A program made the position numbers and the translations under genes. Of a stretch of 64,000 nt of DNA, positions 10,218 to 21,473 are shown piece by piece. The DNA comes from Phaeobacter sp. A36a-5a (GTDB lineage Bacteria; Pseudomonadota; Alphaproteobacteria; Rhodobacterales; Rhodobacteraceae), in assembly GCF_037911135.1 (NCBI RefSeq), contig NZ_JBBLYU010000003.1, forward strand, positions 62,001-126,000, in the 5' to 3' direction. Under the pieces are notes generated by a model. The model was not told where the DNA came from, did no database searches, and was given only the letters and a program-made list of their open reading frames with translations. Within the stretch, counting starts at the first letter, position 1. Every line of letters starts with the position of its first letter.

Positions 10218-10937
10218 GTGGTGCAGGCAGTTAACGTCCGGCGCAGGGCGCTGAACCTGACGGAACCCTCGGGGCCTCGGTTCGGCCAACAGGGACAGGG
10301 CACGCCGCTACGGCTGTTGATTGTCGGCGACAGCTCAGCTGCTGGTGTCGGTGTCGGTCGCCAGAACGATGCGCTCTCCGGTCAACTGACATCGCGCCTG
10401 ACGCAGGGTCGGCATCTAACCTGGCGGCTGGAGGCCACAACCGGGCATCGCAGCGCAGATGCTCTGGCGCGGGTGCGTGCGCTGCCGCCGCAGACCTTTG
10501 ACGTTGCGGTTCTGGCATTGGGGGTCAATGACGTGACCCGGCTTGCGCGGCGGCGACGGTTTCACATGGAACAGTGCGCGCTGATCAAGCTCCTGCGGGA
10601 CCGGTTTGGTGTCAGGCTCGTGGTCTTGTCAGGAGTGCCACCAATGGCATATTTTCCAGCCCTTCCCCAACCGCTGGCTTGGGTCCTGGGTCGCCACGCG
10701 GCGCGGCTGGACCGGGTTCTATCCAACTTGGCCGCAGGGAATCACGATCTCATCCACCTGCCATTCACGATGGCGCCCGACCCAGCGCTGGCAGCGCAGG
10801 ACGGCTATCATCCGTCGGCAGCCGCCTATTCTCTTTGGGCTGAAACCTTAGCAGAGACCATCAACGCGGAACTGTCCTGCACATCCCGGCCCGCCCCTCA
10901 GGCCCGGCGCATCTGCCGCACCAATGAGACCGAGTAG
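10218..10937 (+). CDS. SGNH/GDSL-type esterase
   Basis: The 239-residue enzyme shows SGNH blocks: block I LLIVGDSSAAGVGV with the nucleophilic serine, block III LGVNDV with the oxyanion Asn, and block V DGYHPSAAAY with the catalytic Asp-His pair. It should hydrolyse an ester of unknown type. The start is uncertain. GTG at 10218 is the first conventional start, but the frame remains open upstream and encodes a hydrophobic stretch (IDHIARIVLLPLLVV) that looks like a genuine membrane anchor beginning near the preceding stop, at a non-standard codon. The 3' end overlaps the convergent rarD gene by 40 bp. Confidence 0.82.
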   Translation: MVQAVNVRRRALNLTEPSGPRFGQQGQGTPLRLLIVGDSSAAGVGVGRQNDALSGQLTSRLTQGRHLTWRLEATTGHRSADALARVRALPPQTFDVAVLALGVNDVTRLARRRRFHMEQCALIKLLRDRFGVRLVVLSGVPPMAYFPALPQPLAWVLGRHAARLDRVLSNLAAGNHDLIHLPFTMAPDPALAAQDGYHPSAAAYSLWAETLAETINAELSCTSRPAPQARRICRTNETE

Positions 10938-11791
10938 ATCACCAGCGCCAGCCAGATCATCGGAAAGGCGATCATGCGCGCGCGACCGAAGTCTTCGCCA
11001 AAAATGAACACCGCTGCCAGAAATATCATCGTCGGAGCAATATATTGCAGGATACCGATGGTGGAGAGCCGCAGCAGTTTGGCGCCATTGGCGTAGGTGA
11101 TCAGCGGCACCGCTGTGACCAAACCACAGCCCAGCAGCAACGCGGTGTCACTGAACGCTCCCGCGAAATGCGCGTCACCGGAGGCCGTAAGATAGAGCAG
11201 ATATCCCAGCGCCGGAGGCGTCAGGATCAGCACTTCCAGCATGAAACCCTGATTGGGGCCGACCGGCAGGGATTTCTTGAAGAACGCATAGAACCCCCAG
11301 CTGAGAGTAAGACCAATGGCAGCCCACGGCAGGCGCCCGGCGTCAACGGCAAGCACCAGCACCGCCAGTGCCGCCAGACCGATTGCGACCAGCTGTGCCG
11401 GCAACAATCTCTCTCCTAGCAAAAGTGCACCCAACATAACGCTGAACAGCGGGTTGATATAATACCCCAGCGCCGCATCAAGCGCATGCCCAGTTGCAAT
11501 CGACCACACATAGATGCCCCAATTCACTGAGATCAGCGCCGCTGTCACCGCCCCCATCATCAAGACCTTGGGCGAGGTCAGCGCCGCGCGCAGATCACGG
11601 GTTCGACGCAGGATAATGAGTAGCACACCCGCCACGGGCACCGACCAGATTACCCGATGCGCGACAACTTCGGCGGCGGGCATATGTGCCAGCGCTTTCA
11701 TATAGATCGGCAGAAATCCCCACATCAGATAGGCGGAAACTGCAAAGGCAAGGCCCTGCGGCGTGTCTTTGTTCTCAACTGATGAGGTCAT
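10898..11791 (-). CDS. rarD: RarD-type EamA family transporter
   Basis: The 297-residue inner-membrane protein has about ten predicted hydrophobic helices and the RarD signatures YLMWGFLPIYMKAL near the N-terminus and NWGIYVWSI in the first EamA repeat. The C-terminal repeat has LQYIAPTMIFLAAVFIFGE. The substrate is not known; relatives are annotated as chloramphenicol-sensitive RarD. AGGGAG lies upstream of the ATG at 11791. It overlaps the 3' end of the convergent SGNH gene. Confidence 0.9.
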   Translation of the reverse strand: MTSSVENKDTPQGLAFAVSAYLMWGFLPIYMKALAHMPAAEVVAHRVIWSVPVAGVLLIILRRTRDLRAALTSPKVLMMGAVTAALISVNWGIYVWSIATGHALDAALGYYINPLFSVMLGALLLGERLLPAQLVAIGLAALAVLVLAVDAGRLPWAAIGLTLSWGFYAFFKKSLPVGPNQGFMLEVLILTPPALGYLLYLTASGDAHFAGAFSDTALLLGCGLVTAVPLITYANGAKLLRLSTIGILQYIAPTMIFLAAVFIFGEDFGRARMIAFPMIWLALVIYSVSLVRQMRRA

Positions 11792-11972: not shown

Positions 11973-14423
11973 CTATGCCTTCACCCGCTCCGATTTCGGA
12001 TCATACATCGGCTTCAGGGAAGCTTCGGCTTTCACTTTCACGCCGCAGACGTCGATCTCATAGACCGAACCCAGCACATCCGCTGCGCTTTCCCCCTCGC
12101 AGGGCACATAGCCCATGCCGATGGCGGCACCCAGCGTGTGGCCGTAGTTACCGGAGCTGAGATAGCCCACGTATTTGCCGTCGCGGATGATCGGCTCATT
12201 GTGGAACAAGAGCGGCTCGGGGTCGGTCAGCTTGAACTGAACCATGCGGTTCTTGGGGCCGCTCTCCTTGCGCTCCAGCACCGCGGCCTTGCCGATAAAG
12301 TCGTCCTTGCCGACGGCAACCGCAAAGCCAAGCCCTGCATCGATCACATTGTCTTCGCAAGTGATGTCGTGGCCGAAGTGGCGGAAGCCCTTCTCGATCC
12401 GGCAGCTGTCCATCATATGCATGCCGCAAAGCTTAAGCCCCATGTCGTGGCCCGCCTCCCAGAGGGTTTCGAACGCGTGGCCGGACATTTCCGCCAGGAT
12501 GTAGATCTCCCAGCCCAGTTCGCCGACATAGGTGACCCGGTGCACCCGGGCGAGGCCCATGCCCAGTTCGATCTCTTGCGCGGTACCGAAGGGGTTCACC
12601 TCGTTGGAGAAATCATTGGGGGAGACCTTCTGCAGCAGCTTGCGGGCATTCGGCCCCATCACCGCCAGCACGCCCTCGCCTGCGGTGACATCGGTGAGCA
12701 CGACGTTGAAACCGCCCTTGTTGCGCATCATCCAGGTCTGATCCGCTAGACGGGTCACCGCCGGGGTCACCACCAGATAGACGGTCTCGCTCAGGCGGGT
12801 GACGGTCACATCCGCCTCGATCCCGCCGCGGCTGTTCAGGAACTGGGTGTAGACGATCTTGCCCGCCGGAACCGAGACATTGGCGCCGCAGATGTAATTC
12901 AGGAATTTCTCCGCATCCGGGCCTTCGACGCGGATCTTGCCGAAGGAGGACATGTCGTACATGCCGACATTTTCCCTCACGGCGCGGTGTTCTGCAGCGG
13001 AGTTTTCAAACCAGTTCTGACGCTTCCAGCTGTACTGGTACTCACGCTCCTGGCCTTCATTGGCAAACCAGTTGGCGCGCTCCCAGCCGCCGATTTCGCC
13101 GAAAACGGCGCCCTGTTCCTTGAGGTGGTAGTGGAACGGGGTGCGGCGCACGCCGCGGGCGGTGGCCTTCTGGCGGTAGGGGAAATGGTCCGCATAGAGC
13201 AGGCCCAGGGTCTCTTTCGAGCGTTCGAACAGGTAATGCTTGTTGCCCTGGAACGGGTGCATCCGGGAGATGTCCACATCGCCGAGGTCAAACGGCTTCT
13301 GGCCGTCTTCCATCCACTGCGCCAGCGCCATGCCGGCGCCGCCTGCGGACTGGATGCCGATCGAGTTGAAGCCTGCGGCGACCCAGAAGTTGTCCATCTC
13401 GGGCGCCAGGCCCAGGTGGTAGGCGTCATCCGGGGTGAATGATTCCGGGCCGTTGAAGAAGGTGTGGATACCTGCCTCCGCCAGCATCGGCATCCGGTTG
13501 CAGGCGGCCTCCAGGATCGGTTCGAAATGATCGAAGTCCTCCGGCAGCTGGTCGAATTCGAAGCTGTCGGGGATGCCGTTCATTGCCCAGGGCTTGGCAT
13601 TGGGTTCGAAGGCACCGAGCAGGATTTTCCCTGCATCTTCCTTGTAGTAGGCGCATTCATCCGGCACCCGCAGCACCGGCATCTGGGTCAGGCCTTCGAT
13701 ACCTTCAGTGACAATGTAGAAGTGCTCGCAGGCATGCAGCGGAACGTTGACGCCTGCCATGCGGCCAACCTCATGCCCCCACATGCCGGCGCAGTTCACC
13801 ACCATGTCGCATTCAATATGGCCCTGCGCCCCGCCATCGTCGCTAACCCAGTCCACACCGGTGACGCGGCGGCCCTGTTTGGAGATGCCGGTGACCTTGA
13901 TGCGCTCCTTGACCAGCGCGCCGCGCTGGCGGGCGCCCTTGGCCAGGGCCAGCGCGATGTTGGCCGGATCCGCCTGCCCGTCGGTCGGCAGCCAGACGCC
14001 GCCGGTCACGCCGTCCAGATTGATGTGCTCGTAGCGCTCCTTCACCTCCTTGGGCGACAGCTCCTCCACCGGCACGCCAAAGGCGCGCGCCATGGCGGCG
14101 TTGCGGTAGAGCTCCTCAAGCCGCTCATGGGTCAGGGCAGCGGACACCGACCCCACCTGACGCATACCCGTCGCGACTCCGGTTTCTGCCTCAAGCCCCA
14201 AATAGAGCTCGGCCGAATAGCGGGCGAGTTTGGTCATGTTGGAGGACGCGCGCAGTTGGCCGATCAGCCCCGCGGCATGCCATGTGGTGCCGGAGGTCAG
14301 CTGCTTACGCTCCAGCAGCACCACATCCTTCCAGCCGAGCTTGGTCAGGTGATAAGCTACCGAGCAGCCGATCACGCCGCCGCCGATAATGACAACACGG
14401 GCCTTGTTGGGAAGATCGCTCAT
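11973..14423 (-). CDS. FAD-dependent N-methylamino acid dehydrogenase fused to GcvT domains (paralog 1)
   Basis: The 816-residue protein has the architecture of dimethylglycine/sarcosine dehydrogenases. An N-terminal DAO-type FAD domain (VVIIGGGVIGCS, residues 10-21) carries the SGTTWHAAG segment whose histidine (His49) corresponds to the covalent FAD site of mammalian DMGDH. The C-terminal ~400 residues are a GcvT/aminomethyltransferase module (MYDMSSFGKIRVEGPDAE, later GYLSSGNYGHTLG) that would pass the released C1 unit to tetrahydrofolate. It should oxidatively demethylate an N-methyl amine in the cytoplasm; the substrate is unproven. CAGGAG precedes the ATG. It follows the GlxA gene by 95 bp and is a paralog of the gene at 15528-17975. 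Confidence 0.88.
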   Translation of the reverse strand: MSDLPNKARVVIIGGGVIGCSVAYHLTKLGWKDVVLLERKQLTSGTTWHAAGLIGQLRASSNMTKLARYSAELYLGLEAETGVATGMRQVGSVSAALTHERLEELYRNAAMARAFGVPVEELSPKEVKERYEHINLDGVTGGVWLPTDGQADPANIALALAKGARQRGALVKERIKVTGISKQGRRVTGVDWVSDDGGAQGHIECDMVVNCAGMWGHEVGRMAGVNVPLHACEHFYIVTEGIEGLTQMPVLRVPDECAYYKEDAGKILLGAFEPNAKPWAMNGIPDSFEFDQLPEDFDHFEPILEAACNRMPMLAEAGIHTFFNGPESFTPDDAYHLGLAPEMDNFWVAAGFNSIGIQSAGGAGMALAQWMEDGQKPFDLGDVDISRMHPFQGNKHYLFERSKETLGLLYADHFPYRQKATARGVRRTPFHYHLKEQGAVFGEIGGWERANWFANEGQEREYQYSWKRQNWFENSAAEHRAVRENVGMYDMSSFGKIRVEGPDAEKFLNYICGANVSVPAGKIVYTQFLNSRGGIEADVTVTRLSETVYLVVTPAVTRLADQTWMMRNKGGFNVVLTDVTAGEGVLAVMGPNARKLLQKVSPNDFSNEVNPFGTAQEIELGMGLARVHRVTYVGELGWEIYILAEMSGHAFETLWEAGHDMGLKLCGMHMMDSCRIEKGFRHFGHDITCEDNVIDAGLGFAVAVGKDDFIGKAAVLERKESGPKNRMVQFKLTDPEPLLFHNEPIIRDGKYVGYLSSGNYGHTLGAAIGMGYVPCEGESAADVLGSVYEIDVCGVKVKAEASLKPMYDPKSERVKA

Positions 14424-14518: not shown

Positions 14519-15547
14519 CTAATCGGCGTGTTTCCGACGTCGCTCCATGGACTGGGAAGCGCGTCGTGACTTTCGCAGGGCAAATGGGGTAATGCCGAAA
14601 AAAGCCTTATACAGGGTCGAAAACCCGTTGGAGAATCCGCAGGCCAATCCGATTTCCCGCACGCTCATAGTGGTGTTGAGCAGCAGATTATTCGCCTTGT
14701 TCAGCCGCATTTCGCGGTAAAACCCGTTTGGAGTGGTGCCCAGAAAAGTATTGAACTTGCGCTCCAGCGATCGGGTCGAAATCCCCAGTTGATCCACGAT
14801 CTCGTTGATCGGCAACGGGTCTTCGATGTGCTCCTGCATCACGCGAATGGCCTGATCAAGGTCAGCATCACCGGTAACCGTTGGCTTCACACCTGAGAAG
14901 GGTTGCAGCGATGCGTAATCGCGTATCTTGTCATGCAGCAGGATATTGGCAACCGTCACCTGGGCGGCGGCCGTTGTCAGCTGTCCAATCAGGGCCAGAA
15001 CGATATCCACCGTCGACCCCATTCCGGCACAGGTCACAACCTGACCATCCTCGCTTGCAAGCGCGAAGTTGGCGTCAAACAATCCAATACGTTCGCGCAT
15101 CAAAGTGGCGTTTTCCCAATGTGTCGTGTGGAGCGCCCCCTGCTTTCCGCTGTCGCGGATGTACCTGCTTGCCGCCTCAGCCAGCAGATAGACTTTGGCT
15201 CCGCGCGCGCGATATTTGCTGATCAGCGGCCCCATCGACAGCGCAGGGCAATCGGGATCCGTGTTGCCAAGAACAAAAACACAATCCGCCTCGGCGCGGC
15301 TTGCAAAAGGCTCCGTCTCGACAAAGGCACCCGCCCGGCAGCCGATCTGACCACCCGCTGCGGAGCGAATGGTCCAGGAGAACGGTGGCTGCGCCAACAC
15401 CCGATTGGCCAAGCGCAACGGCTCCACCACGGCGGAAAATTCCGTAAGGACGAAACCTTCGCTCAGCAGGATATCAACCTGCCACCGACGTCCCCCAGGG
15501 GCGGGGCCCCCGGAGGTCGCGCGAGGGTCAGGCCCGGAGCCGGTCAT
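14519..15547 (-). CDS. GlxA-family AraC-type transcriptional regulator
   Basis: A 342-residue regulator with an N-terminal DJ-1/PfpI-like (class I amidotransferase-fold) ligand domain (QVDILLSEGFVLTEFS to about residue 180) and a C-terminal AraC double helix-turn-helix (INEIVDQLGISTRSLERKF and VREIGLACGFSNGFS). GlxA-type regulators such as GbdR and SouR control glycine betaine, dimethylglycine and sarcosine catabolism in pseudomonads, matching the demethylases on both sides. The ATG at 15547 overlaps the upstream dehydrogenase by 20 bp, implying translational coupling. An alternative ATG at 15601 adds residues that do not look conserved. Confidence 0.88.
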   Translation of the reverse strand: MTGSGPDPRATSGGPAPGGRRWQVDILLSEGFVLTEFSAVVEPLRLANRVLAQPPFSWTIRSAAGGQIGCRAGAFVETEPFASRAEADCVFVLGNTDPDCPALSMGPLISKYRARGAKVYLLAEAASRYIRDSGKQGALHTTHWENATLMRERIGLFDANFALASEDGQVVTCAGMGSTVDIVLALIGQLTTAAAQVTVANILLHDKIRDYASLQPFSGVKPTVTGDADLDQAIRVMQEHIEDPLPINEIVDQLGISTRSLERKFNTFLGTTPNGFYREMRLNKANNLLLNTTMSVREIGLACGFSNGFSTLYKAFFGITPFALRKSRRASQSMERRRKHAD

Positions 15548-17975
15548 TGCCCGGATCCCACAGTGGTTCGTCTTTTTGAACCACCGCACGGTATTTCTCA
15601 CCGTAGATTTCGATCTCCAGTTCGGTTCCGGGCACCGCCAACTCAGGTCGCACCATGCCCAGCGCGATGGAGGCGTTCACACGGTAGCCCCAGTCGCCAG
15701 AGGTGGTTTCGCCCACGATCTCGTCATCCTTCCAGATGCAGGACATATAGGGCGCGTCCGCCTCCCCGGCATCGACAATCAGGGTGACAAAGGATTTCTT
15801 CACCCCGCGCTGCTTTTCGGCCTGGATCGCGGCCTTGCCCGGGAAATCCTGCGGTTTGTCCAGCTTGACGAACCGCTCCAGCCCGCCTTCAAGCAGCGAG
15901 TAGTCGGTGGACAGGTCACCCTTCCAGGTGCGGTAACCCTTTTCGATGCGCAGGGAGTTCAGCGCGTACATGCCAAACGGCTTGGCGCCGCCCGCCAGCA
16001 GGGCCTCGTAAATCTCCGTTTGATGCGCGTTGGCGCAATGGACCTCCCAGCCCAGTTCGCCAGCAAAGGACACCCGCGCCAGGAAGGCGGGCTTGCCCGC
16101 GACCGTGGCTTCCTGATGGGTCAGCCAGCCCAGCGACAGATCGGCATCCGAGATGCCCGCCAGCAGCTCCCGCGATTTCGGGCCGGTGACGATCATGGTT
16201 GCAAATTCGGTGGTGCGGTCGGTCAGGGTCAGGCCCTCGGGCAGCGCCTTCTTCAGGATCTCGAAGTCGTGCCACTGGGCCGAGCCCGCGGTGATCAGGG
16301 TGAAGTGGTCCTCGCCATGACGGATGCAGGACATCTCGGTCAGGATGCGGCCGCGGTTATCTGCGAAGTAGACCAGGTTCATCCGGCCCGCCTTGGGCAG
16401 ACCGCCGGTGATCATGCCGCGCAGGAATTCCGCAGCGCCGTCGCCGCTCAGGTTGAAACGGGAGAAACCCGGCAGGTCCAGCACGCCGACGCCGTCGCGG
16501 ACCGCTTCGCATTCTTCCTTGATCCGCTGCTGCCACGGGCCGGAGCGGCCCCAGGTATGAGTGGCCTCCTCGGAGGTGTCGTCACCATCCTTTGCAAACC
16601 AGTTGGCGCGCTCCCAGCCGTTGTAGGCGCCCATCTGGCCGCCCAGTTCCTTGATCCTGCCGTGCACCTGGCTGACCTTCTTGTCTCGCGCAGCGGGCCA
16701 TTCGTGGTGCGGGAAGTGCATGGCGTATTCGTTGCCGTAAACCTCCATGCCTTTCTTGTTGCAGTACTCCTGGTCGGTGTAGTCGGTGTAGCGGCGCGGA
16801 TCGCAGGACCACATGTCCCACTCGGTCTGGCCGTCGGCGATCCACTCCGCCAGCACCTTGCCGGCACCGCCGCCCTGGGCGATGCCAAAGGTAAAGACAC
16901 AGGCTTCGAACGCGTTGTCCACGCCCGGCATCGGGCCCAGCAGCGGCAGACCGTCGGGGGCATAGGGAATCGGGCCGTTGATCACGCTGGAGACGCCGGT
17001 GGACGCCATCAGCGGCACCCGCTCCATCGCGTCGGTGACGATATCCTCGATCCGGTCCAGATCATCCGACCACAGCTGGAACGAAAAATCGTCCGGCATC
17101 CGGTCGTCCTCGGTCATCCAGTGGCCCCTGCAGTTCGGCTCATATGGCCCGAGATTGTAGCCGTTTTTCTCCTGCCGCAGGTAGTAGGACACATCCACAT
17201 CGCGGATCAGCGGGAGCTTCTTGCCGGTCTTCTTGGTGTGCTCTTCGATCTCGGGGATCTGCTCGGTCAGCAGATACTGGTGGCTCATCACCATCATCGG
17301 CACGGTGCGCCCGCCATAGGGCTTGAACCACTCTCCGACACGCTGGGCATAATAACCGGCGGCGTTCACGACATAGTCGCATTCGATATCGCCCTTATCG
17401 GTATGCACGATCCAGGTCTTGTCTTCCTTCTGGCTGACGCCGGTTGCCGGGCAGAAGCGGATGATCCTCGCGCCCATGTCGCGGGCGCCCTTGGCCAACG
17501 CCTGCGTCACCTGCGCCGGGTCGATGTCGCCGTCTGACGGATCCCACAGCACACCTTTCAGGTCGTGGGTCTCCAGGAACGGATAACGCTCCTTGGCCTG
17601 CTTAGGCGTCCATATCTCCATCCCGATGCCCTGATAGCGGCCCATGGAGCAGGCGCGTTCAAACTCCTGCATTCGCTCCTTGGTATGGGCCAGACGGATA
17701 GAGCCGGTCTGATGATAGTTCATCGGATAGTCGACCTCTTCACCGAGGCGGGCATACAGCTCGGTCGAGTAGCGCTGCATGTTCATGATCGCCCAAGAGG
17801 TCGAGAATGTCGGAACATTGCCCGCCGCATGCCATGTCGAACCGGCTGTCAGTTCGTTCTTTTCCAGGAGGACGCAATCCGTCCATCCCTTCTTCCCAAG
17901 ATGATACAGTGCCGAACAGCCGACGACGCCACCGCCGATGATGACCACACGGGCCTTGTTTGGAAAATCGGACAT
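15528..17975 (-). CDS. FAD-dependent N-methylamino acid dehydrogenase fused to GcvT domains (paralog 2)
   Basis: The 815-residue protein has the same build as paralog 1: FAD motif VVIIGGGVVGCS (residues 10-21), the AGSTWHAAG segment with the covalent-FAD histidine (His49), and a C-terminal GcvT module (GVGVLDLPGFSRFNLSGD, later ETTSGDWGYRVNASIALG). The first ten residues differ from paralog 1 at one position, yet the rest has diverged strongly, so substrates probably differ. Likely activity is oxidative N-demethylation (dimethylglycine, sarcosine or relatives) with C1 transfer. AGGGAG lies before the ATG. It follows the GFA gene by 15 bp and overlaps the GlxA gene, so it is central in one transcript. 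Confidence 0.88.
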   Translation of the reverse strand: MSDFPNKARVVIIGGGVVGCSALYHLGKKGWTDCVLLEKNELTAGSTWHAAGNVPTFSTSWAIMNMQRYSTELYARLGEEVDYPMNYHQTGSIRLAHTKERMQEFERACSMGRYQGIGMEIWTPKQAKERYPFLETHDLKGVLWDPSDGDIDPAQVTQALAKGARDMGARIIRFCPATGVSQKEDKTWIVHTDKGDIECDYVVNAAGYYAQRVGEWFKPYGGRTVPMMVMSHQYLLTEQIPEIEEHTKKTGKKLPLIRDVDVSYYLRQEKNGYNLGPYEPNCRGHWMTEDDRMPDDFSFQLWSDDLDRIEDIVTDAMERVPLMASTGVSSVINGPIPYAPDGLPLLGPMPGVDNAFEACVFTFGIAQGGGAGKVLAEWIADGQTEWDMWSCDPRRYTDYTDQEYCNKKGMEVYGNEYAMHFPHHEWPAARDKKVSQVHGRIKELGGQMGAYNGWERANWFAKDGDDTSEEATHTWGRSGPWQQRIKEECEAVRDGVGVLDLPGFSRFNLSGDGAAEFLRGMITGGLPKAGRMNLVYFADNRGRILTEMSCIRHGEDHFTLITAGSAQWHDFEILKKALPEGLTLTDRTTEFATMIVTGPKSRELLAGISDADLSLGWLTHQEATVAGKPAFLARVSFAGELGWEVHCANAHQTEIYEALLAGGAKPFGMYALNSLRIEKGYRTWKGDLSTDYSLLEGGLERFVKLDKPQDFPGKAAIQAEKQRGVKKSFVTLIVDAGEADAPYMSCIWKDDEIVGETTSGDWGYRVNASIALGMVRPELAVPGTELEIEIYGEKYRAVVQKDEPLWDPGNDRLRA

Positions 17976-17990
17976 GATTGCTCCCTGATG

Positions 17991-18362
17991 TCAGTCCTCT
18001 TGCGGCACGCCGTCCGCGATGTCGTAGTAGTCGCCCTTGTCCGCAACAAAGATATGCTTCTCTAGGGAGACACCGGTAGGTGCCTCGACCGAGCCAAGCG
18101 AAAAACAGATCGCGTCCCCATCTTCAGCTTTCCAGAACAGAAACGATCCGCAACGGGCGCAGAAACCCCGTTTCGCCACCGGACTGGCCGCGTACCAGCT
18201 CACCTCGCCGGAGATCATCAGCTCTGCCTCCGGCACGCGAGCCGACGACCATATACCCCCGGATTGCCGACGGCATTGGCCGCAGTGACACATCGAGGCG
18301 CCCTGCGGTTGGGCGGATGTCTCATAATGAATACCCCCGCAAAGACAGGACCCCTTGATCAT
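17991..18362 (-). CDS. GFA family protein (Mss4-like zinc fold)
   Basis: The 123-residue protein has the GFA zinc-binding cysteines: CLCGG (Cys6, Cys8), CHCGQCRR (Cys25, Cys27, Cys30) and FCARCGS (Cys68, Cys71). The family is named after glutathione-dependent formaldehyde-activating enzyme of Paracoccus, although an enzymatic role for Gfa has been questioned and many members have unknown function. Its place just upstream of an N-demethylase, a reaction that can release formaldehyde, makes formaldehyde handling a fair inference. GGAGG before the ATG and a 4-bp ATGA overlap with the LysE gene show translational coupling. Confidence 0.88.
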   Translation of the reverse strand: MIKGSCLCGGIHYETSAQPQGASMCHCGQCRRQSGGIWSSARVPEAELMISGEVSWYAASPVAKRGFCARCGSFLFWKAEDGDAICFSLGSVEAPTGVSLEKHIFVADKGDYYDIADGVPQED

Positions 18363-18988
18363 CTTGCAACCTCCAGGTTGGGAGCGCTGCTCGCGCCGAG
18401 CAGAACGCCGTAAACAATGAAACAAATTGCCAGCAGGCGACGGATCCAGACGCTGAAGACGGCTTTCATTGCAGCTTTTCCCAGGCTGGCACCCAGCAGG
18501 GTGAAACCGGTGTAACTCAGAGTGGTCAGGCCCAAGGCAGTGGGCACGATCACCAGCATCTGGTCCCAGACCGGCACGTCCGGCTGGATGAACTGCGAGA
18601 ACGCGGCGAGATAACCCGCCACGCTCTTCGGATTGATCACGGCCACCGCCAAGGCGTGCAGGTAGATGTGACGGGCGGGCCGGACAGTGGCCGGAACCGG
18701 GCGTGTCGCGTTGCGCCAACCACGCCAACCCAGATAAATCAGAAACCCGGCGCCAATCAGCTTGGCCACCAGAAATCCGGTGGGCGAGGCTGCGATCAGA
18801 GTCGTCACCCCCAGGGCCGACAGCAATAGGAACAACGTCGCTTGCGTCAGGATCGCCAGAACACCGACCATTGCACGCCCAAACCCCAAGGCCATTCCGT
18901 TGGAGATACAATTCACCGCATTCGGCCCGGGTGTGGTCACGAAGACAGCCCAGAACAACCCAAATATGATCCAGGCATCAATACTCAT
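18359..18988 (-). CDS. LysE/RhtB family amino-acid exporter
   Basis: The 209-residue inner-membrane protein has about six hydrophobic helices and the LysE signature TTPGPNAVNCISNG near residue 20. The family exports amino acids or related amines. Two adjacent starts exist, TTG at 18991 and ATG at 18988; I choose ATG, which overlaps the TGA of the upstream regulator by one base. Its position between an amine-type regulator and a GFA/demethylase pair suggests export or overflow control of a methylated amino acid, but the substrate is unknown. Confidence 0.88.
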   Translation of the reverse strand: MSIDAWIIFGLFWAVFVTTPGPNAVNCISNGMALGFGRAMVGVLAILTQATLFLLLSALGVTTLIAASPTGFLVAKLIGAGFLIYLGWRGWRNATRPVPATVRPARHIYLHALAVAVINPKSVAGYLAAFSQFIQPDVPVWDQMLVIVPTALGLTTLSYTGFTLLGASLGKAAMKAVFSVWIRRLLAICFIVYGVLLGASSAPNLEVAR

Positions 18989-19557
18989 CAATACACCGGC
19001 GGAGCAATAACCCAGACCGCGACGGCCGGCGTGTCATAGGGGTTGGCCCATTGGTACGGCTCTTCCTTGATCCGGAAACTGTCGCCGGGCCCCACGGTGA
19101 AACTGCGCCCCCCGATCAGCAGGTCCAACCGGCCTGAAATCATGTAGCCAACCTCCTGCGTCGGGCGGTCGGCGGGGGTCTGCATCCGCGAATGCGGACG
19201 AAAGGTGGAGTGCACCATCTCGAAGTCATCGGTCAGATCGGGCGACAGCAGTTCTTCGATCAGACCTTCGTCGCCCGACCCCATCGGACGGCGCGCGCCT
19301 GCGCGGACAATGTACCCCTGTTCTGAAACCGGCGCCGCCGAATGGGCAAACAACATCGACATCGGCACATCCAACGAGCTGGCAATCGCTCTAAGATCAG
19401 AAATCGACGGTTCCGACATATCCCGCTCGACCTGGCTCAACCAGCCAACAGACCGACCAAGACGCCCCGCAAGATCGGCAAGCGTCACGCCACGCGCCTT
19501 ACGCAAGGCGCGCAGATCCGCACCGAGTGTTGCGTGATATGGTGATTGATCTGTCAC
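18988..19557 (-). CDS. XRE-family regulator with C-terminal cupin domain
   Basis: The 189-residue regulator has an N-terminal Cro/C1-type helix-turn-helix (LRALRKARGVTLADLAGRLG, residues 16-35) and a C-terminal cupin_2 ligand domain (PTQEVGYMISGRLDLLIGG, then FTVGPGDSFRIKEEPYQW). Regulators of this build (PuuR-like) often control amine or amino-acid catabolism. It is the first gene of the coupled unit with LysE, GFA, the dehydrogenase and GlxA. The region just upstream has several TTTTTCA-type repeats, annotated separately, which could be its own operators. Confidence 0.9.
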   Translation of the reverse strand: MTDQSPYHATLGADLRALRKARGVTLADLAGRLGRSVGWLSQVERDMSEPSISDLRAIASSLDVPMSMLFAHSAAPVSEQGYIVRAGARRPMGSGDEGLIEELLSPDLTDDFEMVHSTFRPHSRMQTPADRPTQEVGYMISGRLDLLIGGRSFTVGPGDSFRIKEEPYQWANPYDTPAVAVWVIAPPVY

Positions 19558-19567
19558 AGGGGCTCCA

Positions 19568-19633
19568 TGAAAAAGCGGGTCATTTTTTCACGATGCACTG
19601 GCTTTGTGAAATTTCAAAGCCTTTTTTCATGAA
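19568..19633. promoter_or_regulatory. Candidate operator cluster upstream of XRE-cupin gene
   Basis: Four related A/T-rich elements occur in 66 bp: TGAAAAA (19568-19574), TTTTTTCA (19583-19590), TGAAATTTCA inside the inverted repeat GGCTTTG/CAAAGCC (19600-19621), and TTTTTTCATGAA (19622-19633). The outer CATGAAAAA and TTTTTCATG are reverse complements. This dense, symmetric array directly before a regulator gene fits autoregulation, but the protein that binds is inferred only. Confidence 0.45.
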
Positions 19634-19746: not shown

Positions 19747-20205
19747 TCAATCGGCGCGGCTGAAGACCTGCTTCAATATGAGCGTCAGCTGCTCTGCGTC
19801 TTCTTGCGTGAAGGCATCCGGCTGATCGCTGTCGATATCAAACACGCCGATCAGCGCTCCGTCGCGGTTCCATACCGGCAGCACCAGCTCGGACCGTGTC
19901 GATGACGCACAGGCGATATGGCCCGGAAAGGCGTCAACATCAGCGACCAGCTGCACCTCACCGCTGCGCGCCGCTGCTCCGCAGACGCCGCGTGAAAACG
20001 GGATCTGCAAACATCCATGACCACCCTGATAGGGGCCAATCTTCAGCAATTGCGGCGCCACTACCCGATAAAACCCAGTCCAGTTGAACCGATCATCGCT
20101 GTGGTGGACCTCACAGCTCACGGTTGCCATCAGCGCAACTTCGTCAGTCTCGCCCTCAGTCAGTGCAGCGATAGTCTTGGCAAGTGTTTCGTACTCGACC
20201 TGCAA
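19747..20205 (-). CDS. msrC: Free methionine-(R)-sulfoxide reductase (GAF-type fRMsr)
   Basis: The 152-residue single-GAF-domain enzyme should reduce free methionine-(R)-sulfoxide in the cytoplasm. It has the diagnostic triad of cysteines, Cys65 (GHGCLQ), Cys75 (RGVCGAA) and Cys99 (GHIACAS), with spacings of 10 and 24 that equal those I recall for the E. coli enzyme (Cys84, 94, 118). The block SELVLPVWNRDGALIGVFDIDS is also typical. A purine-rich GGAGGG lies upstream of the ATG. It is a single gene bracketed by the two intergenic repeat copies. Confidence 0.9.
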   Translation of the reverse strand: MQVEYETLAKTIAALTEGETDEVALMATVSCEVHHSDDRFNWTGFYRVVAPQLLKIGPYQGGHGCLQIPFSRGVCGAAARSGEVQLVADVDAFPGHIACASSTRSELVLPVWNRDGALIGVFDIDSDQPDAFTQEDAEQLTLILKQVFSRAD

Positions 20206-20300: not shown

Positions 20301-21473
20301 TCACACCCGCTCGATCGCGATTGCCGTTCCCTCGCCGCCGCCGATACAGATGGCAGCGATCCCCCGTTTGAGACCGCGTTTTTCCAGCGCGTTGAGCAAG
20401 GTTACAATAATCCGCGCACCAGAGGCCCCAATCGGATGCCCCAACGCGCAGGCACCGCCGTTCACATTCACCTTGTCGCGCGGCAGCCCCATTTCACGCA
20501 TGAAGGCCATGGGCACAACTGCGAAGGCTTCATTCACCTCCCACAGGTCGACATCATCGGTGGTCCAGCCGATCTTCTCCATCAGCTTCTTCGCTGCTGG
20601 GACTGGAGCAGTTGTGAACAGACCCGGCGCCTGTGCGTGGCTTGCATGCCCCATGATCCGGGCGCGTATGGTCAAGCCTTGCGCCTCGGCAGCCTCCTGC
20701 GAGGCCAGAACCAAGGCCGCCGCGCCATCGGAGATCGAGGAGGCATTTGCTGCCGTTACGGTGCCATCCTTGCGGAAGGCCGGTTTGAGCGTCGGGATCT
20801 TGTCGGGGCGCGCCGATTTCGGCTGCTCATCGGCATCCGTCACGACCTCGCCTTTTCGAGTTTTTACGGTGACAGCCGCGATTTCACCGGCAAACGCACC
20901 GCTTTCCTGTGCGGCCAGCGCATTGGATAGCGATGTCAGCGCGTATTCGTCCTGCGCTTCACGGGTGAATTGATAGGTCTCAGCGCAATCCTCGGCAAAG
21001 CTCCCCATCAGGCGGCCCTTGTCATAGGCGTCCTCGAGGCCGTCGAGAAACATATGATCAACCACCTGCCCGTGCCCGATCCGCGCGCCATTGCGCATCT
21101 TCGGCAGAAGATAAGGCGCATTGGTCATGCTCTCCATACCGCCCGCAACCATGGTATCGGTCTGCCCAAGCGCGATCTGATCATAAGCAATCATCGCGGC
21201 CTTCATCCCGGAGCCACACATCTTGTTCAGCGTCGTTGCAGGCACCTCTTCTCCGAGGCCAGCCGCAAACCCGGCCTGTCGCGCGGGCGCCTGGCCCTGG
21301 CCCGCCGGAAGGACGCAGCCCATCAGGACCTCATCCACCGTGCTGGCGCCTGCCCCCTCAAGAGCTGCGCGGATTGCAGCGCCGCCGAGGTCGGCGGCCG
21401 CGACGCCGTCGTACATGCCCTGAAAACCTCCCATCGGGGTTCGGGCCGCGCCTGCGATCACTACATTTTTCAT
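20301..21473 (-). CDS. Acetyl-CoA C-acyltransferase (thiolase)
   Basis: The 390-residue protein has the complete thiolase active site: nucleophile Cys86 in NKMCGSGMKA, the NEAF and GHPIGASGAR blocks carrying the catalytic His residues, and Cys376 in AICIGGGEGTA. It joins or cleaves acyl-CoAs in beta-oxidation, ketone-body or polyhydroxybutyrate metabolism; which of these is not decided by context because no beta-oxidation or phb partner is adjacent. AGGAGG lies upstream of the ATG. It is divergent from the STAS gene. Confidence 0.95.
   Translation of the reverse strand: MKNVVIAGAARTPMGGFQGMYDGVAAADLGGAAIRAALEGAGASTVDEVLMGCVLPAGQGQAPARQAGFAAGLGEEVPATTLNKMCGSGMKAAMIAYDQIALGQTDTMVAGGMESMTNAPYLLPKMRNGARIGHGQVVDHMFLDGLEDAYDKGRLMGSFAEDCAETYQFTREAQDEYALTSLSNALAAQESGAFAGEIAAVTVKTRKGEVVTDADEQPKSARPDKIPTLKPAFRKDGTVTAANASSISDGAAALVLASQEAAEAQGLTIRARIMGHASHAQAPGLFTTAPVPAAKKLMEKIGWTTDDVDLWEVNEAFAVVPMAFMREMGLPRDKVNVNGGACALGHPIGASGARIIVTLLNALEKRGLKRGIAAICIGGGEGTAIAIERV

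Follow-up and report, generated by a model that had tools for sequence, protein, structure and literature searches.

A predicted dimethylglycine and sarcosine demethylation operon with a conserved candidate operator in Phaeobacter and its relatives

Algae use glycine betaine as a major osmolyte, and its breakdown gives dimethylglycine and sarcosine. The closest described genes are those of Ruegeria pomeroyi. In the accessible part of one study SPO3400 is named as a dimethylglycine dehydrogenase and SPO3396 as a sarcosine dehydrogenase, both with folate-binding domains (PMC4744692), and the accessible part of a second lists SPO3398 as a homocysteine S-methyltransferase (PMC4809877). In R. pomeroyi on N-osmolytes, proteins for the predicted demethylation of dimethylglycine and sarcosine rise, as do two MtgB-type proteins; the available portion of that account gives no locus tags for the former (PMC12478193). 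We found no described regulator of the dimethylglycine and sarcosine steps in roseobacters in the open-access literature.

We have analyzed a stretch of 64,000 nucleotides from Phaeobacter sp. A36a-5a (contig NZ_JBBLYU010000003.1, positions 62,001 to 126,000), here called the window. It contains a run of seven genes, as follows.

19557-18988, minus strand: XRE-cupin regulator gene, with a GTG start; Pfam HTH_31 and Cupin_2 over cut-off
18988-18359, minus strand: LysE-family exporter gene, position A; PF01810 at 70.8 bits (cut-off 25.6)
18362-17991, minus strand: gene for a short GFA-domain protein of 123 aa; PF04828 at 72.3 bits (cut-off 24.3)
17975-15528, minus strand: DH1, demethylase with FAD and folate domains; DAO, FAO_M, GCV_T and GCV_T_C over cut-off
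15547-14519, minus strand: AraC/GlxA regulator gene; Pfam HTH_18
11973-14423, minus strand: DH2, second demethylase with FAD and folate domains; DAO, FAO_M, GCV_T and GCV_T_C over cut-off
10898-11791, minus strand: EamA-family transporter gene 3' of DH2; syntenic in many roseobacter loci

We consider it likely that this locus is a dimethylglycine and sarcosine demethylation operon of the glycine betaine pathway, under the control of a local XRE-cupin autorepressor.

The locus and its counterpart in Ruegeria pomeroyi

A sequence-only reading of the window had described the first five genes as a coupled unit. Its genes and its junctions of -1, -4, +15 and -20 are exact to the base, and the families are confirmed by Pfam. 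The XRE-cupin and LysE genes overlap by one base (TGATG) and the LysE and GFA genes by four (ATGA), a gap of 15 bp separates GFA from DH1, and DH1 overlaps the AraC gene by 20 bases. This last overlap is atypical, as relatives usually carry a homocysteine methyltransferase gene there, some with an oxidoreductase gene as well. DH2 starts 95 bp past the AraC gene, outside the stretch covered by the earlier reading, and the EamA gene, which is possibly the last member of the operon, lies 181 bp beyond DH2. With these additions the first five genes become the front half of a larger predicted operon that is conserved in marine bacteria. Upstream lie what we take to be a GAF-like gene (19747-20205) and a thiolase-like (Thl) gene (20301-21473); in many relatives these adjoin the operon, or GFA alone.

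In R. pomeroyi SZCCDBG043 (L061) the order is XRE-GFA-DH1-oxidoreductase-homocysteine methyltransferase-AraC-DH2-EamA, where the two inner genes are named from their sequence and by a profile, presumably correctly. The window's DH1 and DH2 are respectively 82% and 83% identical to those of L061. The gene counts in L061 fit SPO3400, SPO3398 and SPO3396 as named in the accessible parts of PMC4744692 and PMC4809877; the numbers SPO3397, SPO3399, SPO3401 and SPO3402 were assigned by counting in this other strain, not from the record. R. pomeroyi SPO3396-SPO3402 and the window have in common the order XRE-GFA-DH1, then AraC-DH2-EamA. They differ in that the window has a LysE gene between XRE and GFA, where L061 has none, and that L061 has the oxidoreductase and homocysteine methyltransferase genes between DH1 and AraC, where the window has neither. 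No close counterpart of the homocysteine methyltransferase was found in the window genome, the best match having 24% identity. It is likewise absent between DH1 and AraC in L044, L050, L055 and L084, so that the state of the window is not unique. The record of L044 is titled Nocardioides marinus DP1N28-1, an actinobacterial name, and is probably mislabeled: it holds the roseobacter operon, with DH1 87% and DH2 90% identical.

Because the locus matches SPO3396-SPO3402, with DH2 and DH1 corresponding to the named dehydrogenases, we assign it to the glycine betaine pathway. We infer that DH1 is a predicted dimethylglycine dehydrogenase and DH2 a predicted sarcosine dehydrogenase, a split that rests on the published naming. 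The sequence-only reading knew of no described system with this set of genes. For the demethylases this does not hold, as they are the counterparts of SPO3400 and SPO3396 as named in the accessible part of PMC4744692; for the company in which they stand it does, since we found no description in the open-access literature of XRE, LysE and GFA genes alongside demethylases. The idea of an undescribed pathway was dropped on the match of the gene order to SPO3396-SPO3400.

The demethylases, the GFA protein and the fate of the methyl carbon

DH1 and DH2 both have the four-domain order DAO, FAO_M, GCV_T and GCV_T_C over about 815 aa, and both match rat dimethylglycine dehydrogenase over nearly the full length (E 2.6e-165 for DH1, 1.9e-144 for DH2). 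DH2 closely matches Arthrobacter dimethylglycine oxidase as well (E 7e-131). The motif WHAAG, whose histidine we take to be the site of covalent FAD attachment, is present in both and aligned with that of the rat enzyme, and GELGWE is present in both folate domains. The glutamate of GELGWE and the acid at position 552 of the Arthrobacter oxidase (1pj5) are presumably functional residues of the folate domain. At the position of Asp552, DH1 shares Glu with the rat and human enzymes, DH2 has Asp and 3gsi has Ala. The Tyr that precedes GELGWE in rat, Arthrobacter and DH2 is Phe in DH1. Mammalian dimethylglycine dehydrogenase (4pab, 5l46) is thus like DH1 and DH2 in the whole-length match and in both motifs, and like DH1 in the Glu; it differs in that DH1 is bacterial, operon-encoded and carries the Tyr to Phe change beside the folate motif.

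With the folate-site motifs kept in DH1 and DH2, free formaldehyde is not required, and the carbon released on demethylation most likely goes to tetrahydrofolate. The two enzymes would act in succession to strip the two remaining N-methyl groups, each oxidized by the flavin, and would pass the methyl carbon to tetrahydrofolate as 5,10-methylene-THF.

A different substrate for the two enzymes has to be considered. Five members of the FAD/folate demethylase family are encoded in the window genome, DH1 and DH2 included, and eleven in the relative G140, while no listed NCBIfam match lies above cut-off for either DH1 or DH2. These enzymes might then act on another N-methyl compound, such as another methylated amino acid, with a link to betaine by family only. 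We regard this as very improbable in the light of the counterparts SPO3400 and SPO3396 (accessible part of PMC4744692), the GbdR-like regulator within the operon, the homocysteine methyltransferase gene that most relatives carry there and, as a weaker point, the predicted operator beside an mtgB-like gene.

The sequence-only reading had also pictured a self-contained module for amine demethylation, formaldehyde handling and the venting of an amino acid or excess substrate. Spelled out, the demethylase would release formaldehyde, the GFA protein would conjugate it to glutathione and the LysE protein would vent an amino acid. In its favor, GFA accompanies XRE and DH1 in most modules, and the cysteines of the GFA protein are intact, with residues 6, 8, 25, 27, 30, 68 and 71 conserved in 99-100% of 133 sequences. 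The recurrence of LysE in three distinct types also suggests selection for export. Set against this are the retained folate-site motifs of DH1 and DH2 and a report on the Paracoccus GFA protein, which according to the accessible part of that work binds glutathione and does not catalyze the formation of S-hydroxymethylglutathione under standard conditions (PMC4682968). Two aspects of gene distribution given below also count against it, and overall we judge such a module improbable. No NCBIfam match to the GFA protein was found at E 0.01. A GFA subtype specific to the module was considered and dropped, as at the cut-offs used no position tells the GFA proteins of the module from the others; a tree of the GFA proteins has poor resolution, with 30 label changes over 133 rows, yet is clustered when compared with shuffles. 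Given the folate motifs of the demethylases, the reported absence of catalysis by the Paracoccus protein under standard conditions and the lack of a distinguishing GFA position, a role of the GFA protein as a formaldehyde enzyme is weakened and appears doubtful.

Conservation and composite make-up of the gene set

Conservation was examined from both ends of the gene set. The DH1 loci that we name are the best 80 by similarity of at least 598, a sample that favors close relatives, and 66 of the 80 fetched had enough flanking sequence for counting. Among those 66, XRE is present in 59, GFA in 51, LysE in 46, DH2 in 60, homocysteine methyltransferase in 46 and the AraC gene in 40. A set centered on GFA comprises 120 regions from 115 genomes of the family, with some 5 kb on either side; these are mainly the higher-ranking of the matches listed, leaving out second GFA matches in a region and many weaker ones; the classes were called with our own profiles and thresholds. 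Among these matches XRE and a demethylase occur together in 62 of the 120 regions of other genomes. LysE is present as well in 41 of these 62, and one of them, L128, has DH2 and no DH1. The remainder comprise two regions with a demethylase and no XRE, one with XRE and no demethylase, which ends with its contig, and 55 with neither, 12 of which have LysE. Contig ends truncate L139 and L147, and L153 has no XRE despite 4 kb of upstream sequence. Three tandem GFA genes lie between XRE and DH1 in L104, L116 and L212.

The search for the gene set in other genomes that the sequence-only reading had suggested thus finds it joined in 62 of the 120 GFA-centered regions, which is not chance. The unit around an amine demethylase that it described is borne out as a conserved one, as XRE and GFA are accompanied by a demethylase in 62 of the 63 regions that have both, and the exception ends at a contig edge. 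Its expectation that the set would not often lack a demethylase holds in part: it does so for XRE with GFA, in the same 62 of 63, and fails for LysE with GFA, which has no demethylase nearby in 12 of the 120.

The LysE genes occupy three positions in the operon, which we call A (before GFA), B (between GFA and DH1) and C (after DH1), with up to three in one operon (L123 and L173 have three). Median identity within a position is 72% for A, 52% for B and 72% for C, and between positions it is 29-31% with a few exceptions; types set by position in this way are not pure, the lowest A-A identity being 23% and the highest A-B identity 57%. LysE genes like A (seven) and like B (five) are also paired with GFA outside the module. 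The window genome has eight LysE and five GFA genes and, judged by position, LysE adjoins only the GFA of the operon. All five NCBIfam matches to LysE substrate subfamilies (homoserine, leucine, lysine and cysteine exporters) lie below cut-off. The repeated recruitment of three distinct types suggests a real need for export.

The composition of the set was traced in genomes where its parts lie apart. We looked for a DH1 orthologue in 22 genomes, 12 with LysE-GFA alone and 10 with GFA only, and found one in eight. Among the 12 with LysE-GFA away from a demethylase, five carry a DH1 orthologue at another place in the genome, with 68-74% identity, and seven have no DH1 relative above 41% identity, one of these seven genomes being 86% complete. 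This persistence of LysE-GFA without a DH1 orthologue is the first of the two distributions that speak against a formaldehyde module. In the eight genomes where GFA is apart from the demethylases (five with LysE-GFA, three with GFA alone) XRE is present at six of the eight DH1 loci, and all six also carry the predicted operator described below. Outside the family, 12 of 13 loci with XRE matches were covered (G380 was left out). A DH1- or DH2-like demethylase lies within 2.3 kb of XRE in 11 of the 12, one of them divergent, and no GFA was found in the fetched stretches of the 12. Since each occurs without the other, we regard XRE and the demethylases as the core, and LysE-GFA as a second, separable pair. 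A 'GFA' name should accordingly not be taken to imply a part in formaldehyde handling. At L150, L170 and L209 LysE-GFA adjoins a homocysteine methyltransferase gene, with no demethylase or XRE in the stretch.

The separable pair might be no functional part of the operon. LysE-GFA could be a hitchhiker that resided beside the Thl and GAF genes for reasons of its own and was joined to the core when a rearrangement happened to bring them together, with nothing but the transcript in common. The Thl and GAF genes seen in the window also lie within 5 kb of 7 of the 12 demethylase-free LysE-GFA pairs and in 11 of 43 GFA-only regions (the second distribution that disfavors the formaldehyde module), and the 11 loci outside the family with XRE and a demethylase have no GFA. 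All this is what a hitchhiker would leave. However, 62 of the 120 regions retain the joined set, the 120 coming from 115 genomes of nearly all different genera among the matches listed, and LysE types B and C stand elsewhere in the operon. Both points argue for selection on the combination, and we find a passive pair rather unlikely. In the operon as we propose it, LysE and GFA would be an accessory pair that in this family is located within it, LysE exporting a surplus metabolite and GFA being a zinc-cysteine protein.

A more specific role can be imagined for the pair, although it strikes us as speculative and a long way from probable. LysE and GFA might together remove a formaldehyde-derived or surplus amino-acid product when demethylation outruns the supply of folate; GFA with glutathione would handle an adduct that the LysE-family exporter expels, and the XRE-cupin protein would sense the same stress. 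If true, this would explain both the three LysE types in the operon and the occurrence of the pair beside other genes.

The XRE-cupin regulator and its candidate operator

Two copies of a palindrome lie before the XRE-cupin gene, spaced 39 bp apart.

19606..19630, minus strand: predicted operator 1, GTGAAA-N13-TTTCAC with 1 mismatch, overlapping a -35-like hexamer
19567..19591, minus strand: predicted operator 2, same GTGAAA-N13-TTTCAC motif with 1 mismatch, overlapping a -10-like hexamer

The promoter-like hexamers (19610..19582) have 9 of 12 matches; with 3 such found against 1.5 expected, this promoter match is weak. A terminator-like hairpin of the plus strand (19600-19621) overlies predicted operator 1.

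The motif is found with at most one mismatch before XRE in 140 of 149 unique upstream regions, counted after merging three that were duplicated between two sets. At least two sites are present in 100 of the 149, and in 79 a pair is exactly 39 bp apart. Of the nine regions without the motif, L047 and L204 belong to other XRE-cupin genes, and in L053, L100, L267 and L269 a site appears once two mismatches are allowed. The spacer is 13 in 246 of 252 matches. Any match occurred in 0.5% of base-shuffled sequences. The window has two sites where 0.07 are expected, although one in 100 dinucleotide shuffles also gave two. The fetched loci, 3.1 Mb in all, contain 246 sites, and 245 of them lie no more than 300 bp before XRE. 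In each of the 42 family genomes tested the operator precedes XRE at no more than one mismatch, and 52 of their 61 perfect sites are upstream of XRE; the control with a reversed pattern gave one. Of the nine perfect sites off the locus, one adjoins mtgB of G200 and another is at G053:C10:7693; G193 and G213 have one identical off-locus site in common. The window genome has four other one-mismatch sites, some of which may be chance, as the reversed control gave one. Outside the family the motif at one mismatch was absent in 5 of 12 XRE relatives.

The position of the two sites over the -35- and -10-like hexamers of a weak promoter match suggests repression, and we propose that the XRE-cupin protein is an autorepressor of the operon. 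It would bind the two palindromes before its own gene and repress the operon until a metabolite of the pathway binds the cupin domain. The joint control that the sequence-only reading had drawn from tight spacing is thus supported by conservation and by a predicted operator.

The AraC protein probably activates the later genes of the operon. It resembles GbdR of Pseudomonas in being of the AraC family, in having GbdR (NF052371) as best NCBIfam match and in adjoining dimethylglycine genes; however, at 130.6 bits against a cut-off of 480 it is not a member by that cut-off. Its N-terminal part has no Pfam match at E 0.001. Regulators of the glxA and XRE families are mentioned in methylamine clusters in the accessible part of PMC7574528, and may or may not be related to the XRE and AraC proteins here.

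The only perfect operator site in the window genome, C1:1525268, is on another contig. It starts 249 bp before the gene for a 516-aa MTTB protein (PF06253, 365 bits) that matches PDB 9yce, 'Glycine betaine methyltransferase', with E 1.2e-60, from which this activity is predicted; its score of 333 with TIGR02369 (trimethylamine) falls short of the cut-off of 525. The protein is thus of the family of the MtgB glycine betaine methyltransferase (accessible part of PMC12478193; PDB 9yce), from which it differs in being encoded on another contig than the operon, with a substrate inferred from the family. A divergent outer-membrane gene is also close to this site, at a distance of about 64 bp. Since this gene is nearer, the target is ambiguous, and this third site may put under XRE-cupin control either the mtgB-like gene, for the first demethylation step, or the divergent gene. 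Of 28 genomes with an mtgB-like gene three have such a site, namely the window genome, the sister species G075 (with one mismatch) and G200; it is absent in the other 25, and an XRE regulon reaching mtgB everywhere was therefore dropped. A divergent gene is present at the operator in all three (L282 5459-6205, L288 443-1123, L291 3253-3957). In the window genome its product is an outer-membrane barrel by Pfam, with a 68% identical relative in G075 (L288); that of G200 (L291) is another sequence.

New here are the conserved operator before XRE, the composite gene set and the three LysE types at three positions. By demethylating glycine betaine, roseobacters contribute to the cycling of carbon, nitrogen and one-carbon units in the sea, and in the literature that we found the dimethylglycine and sarcosine steps of this pathway are named by prediction only. 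The short, specific operator offers a directly testable regulator for these steps, and a cheap genomic marker for the dimethylglycine and sarcosine pathway.
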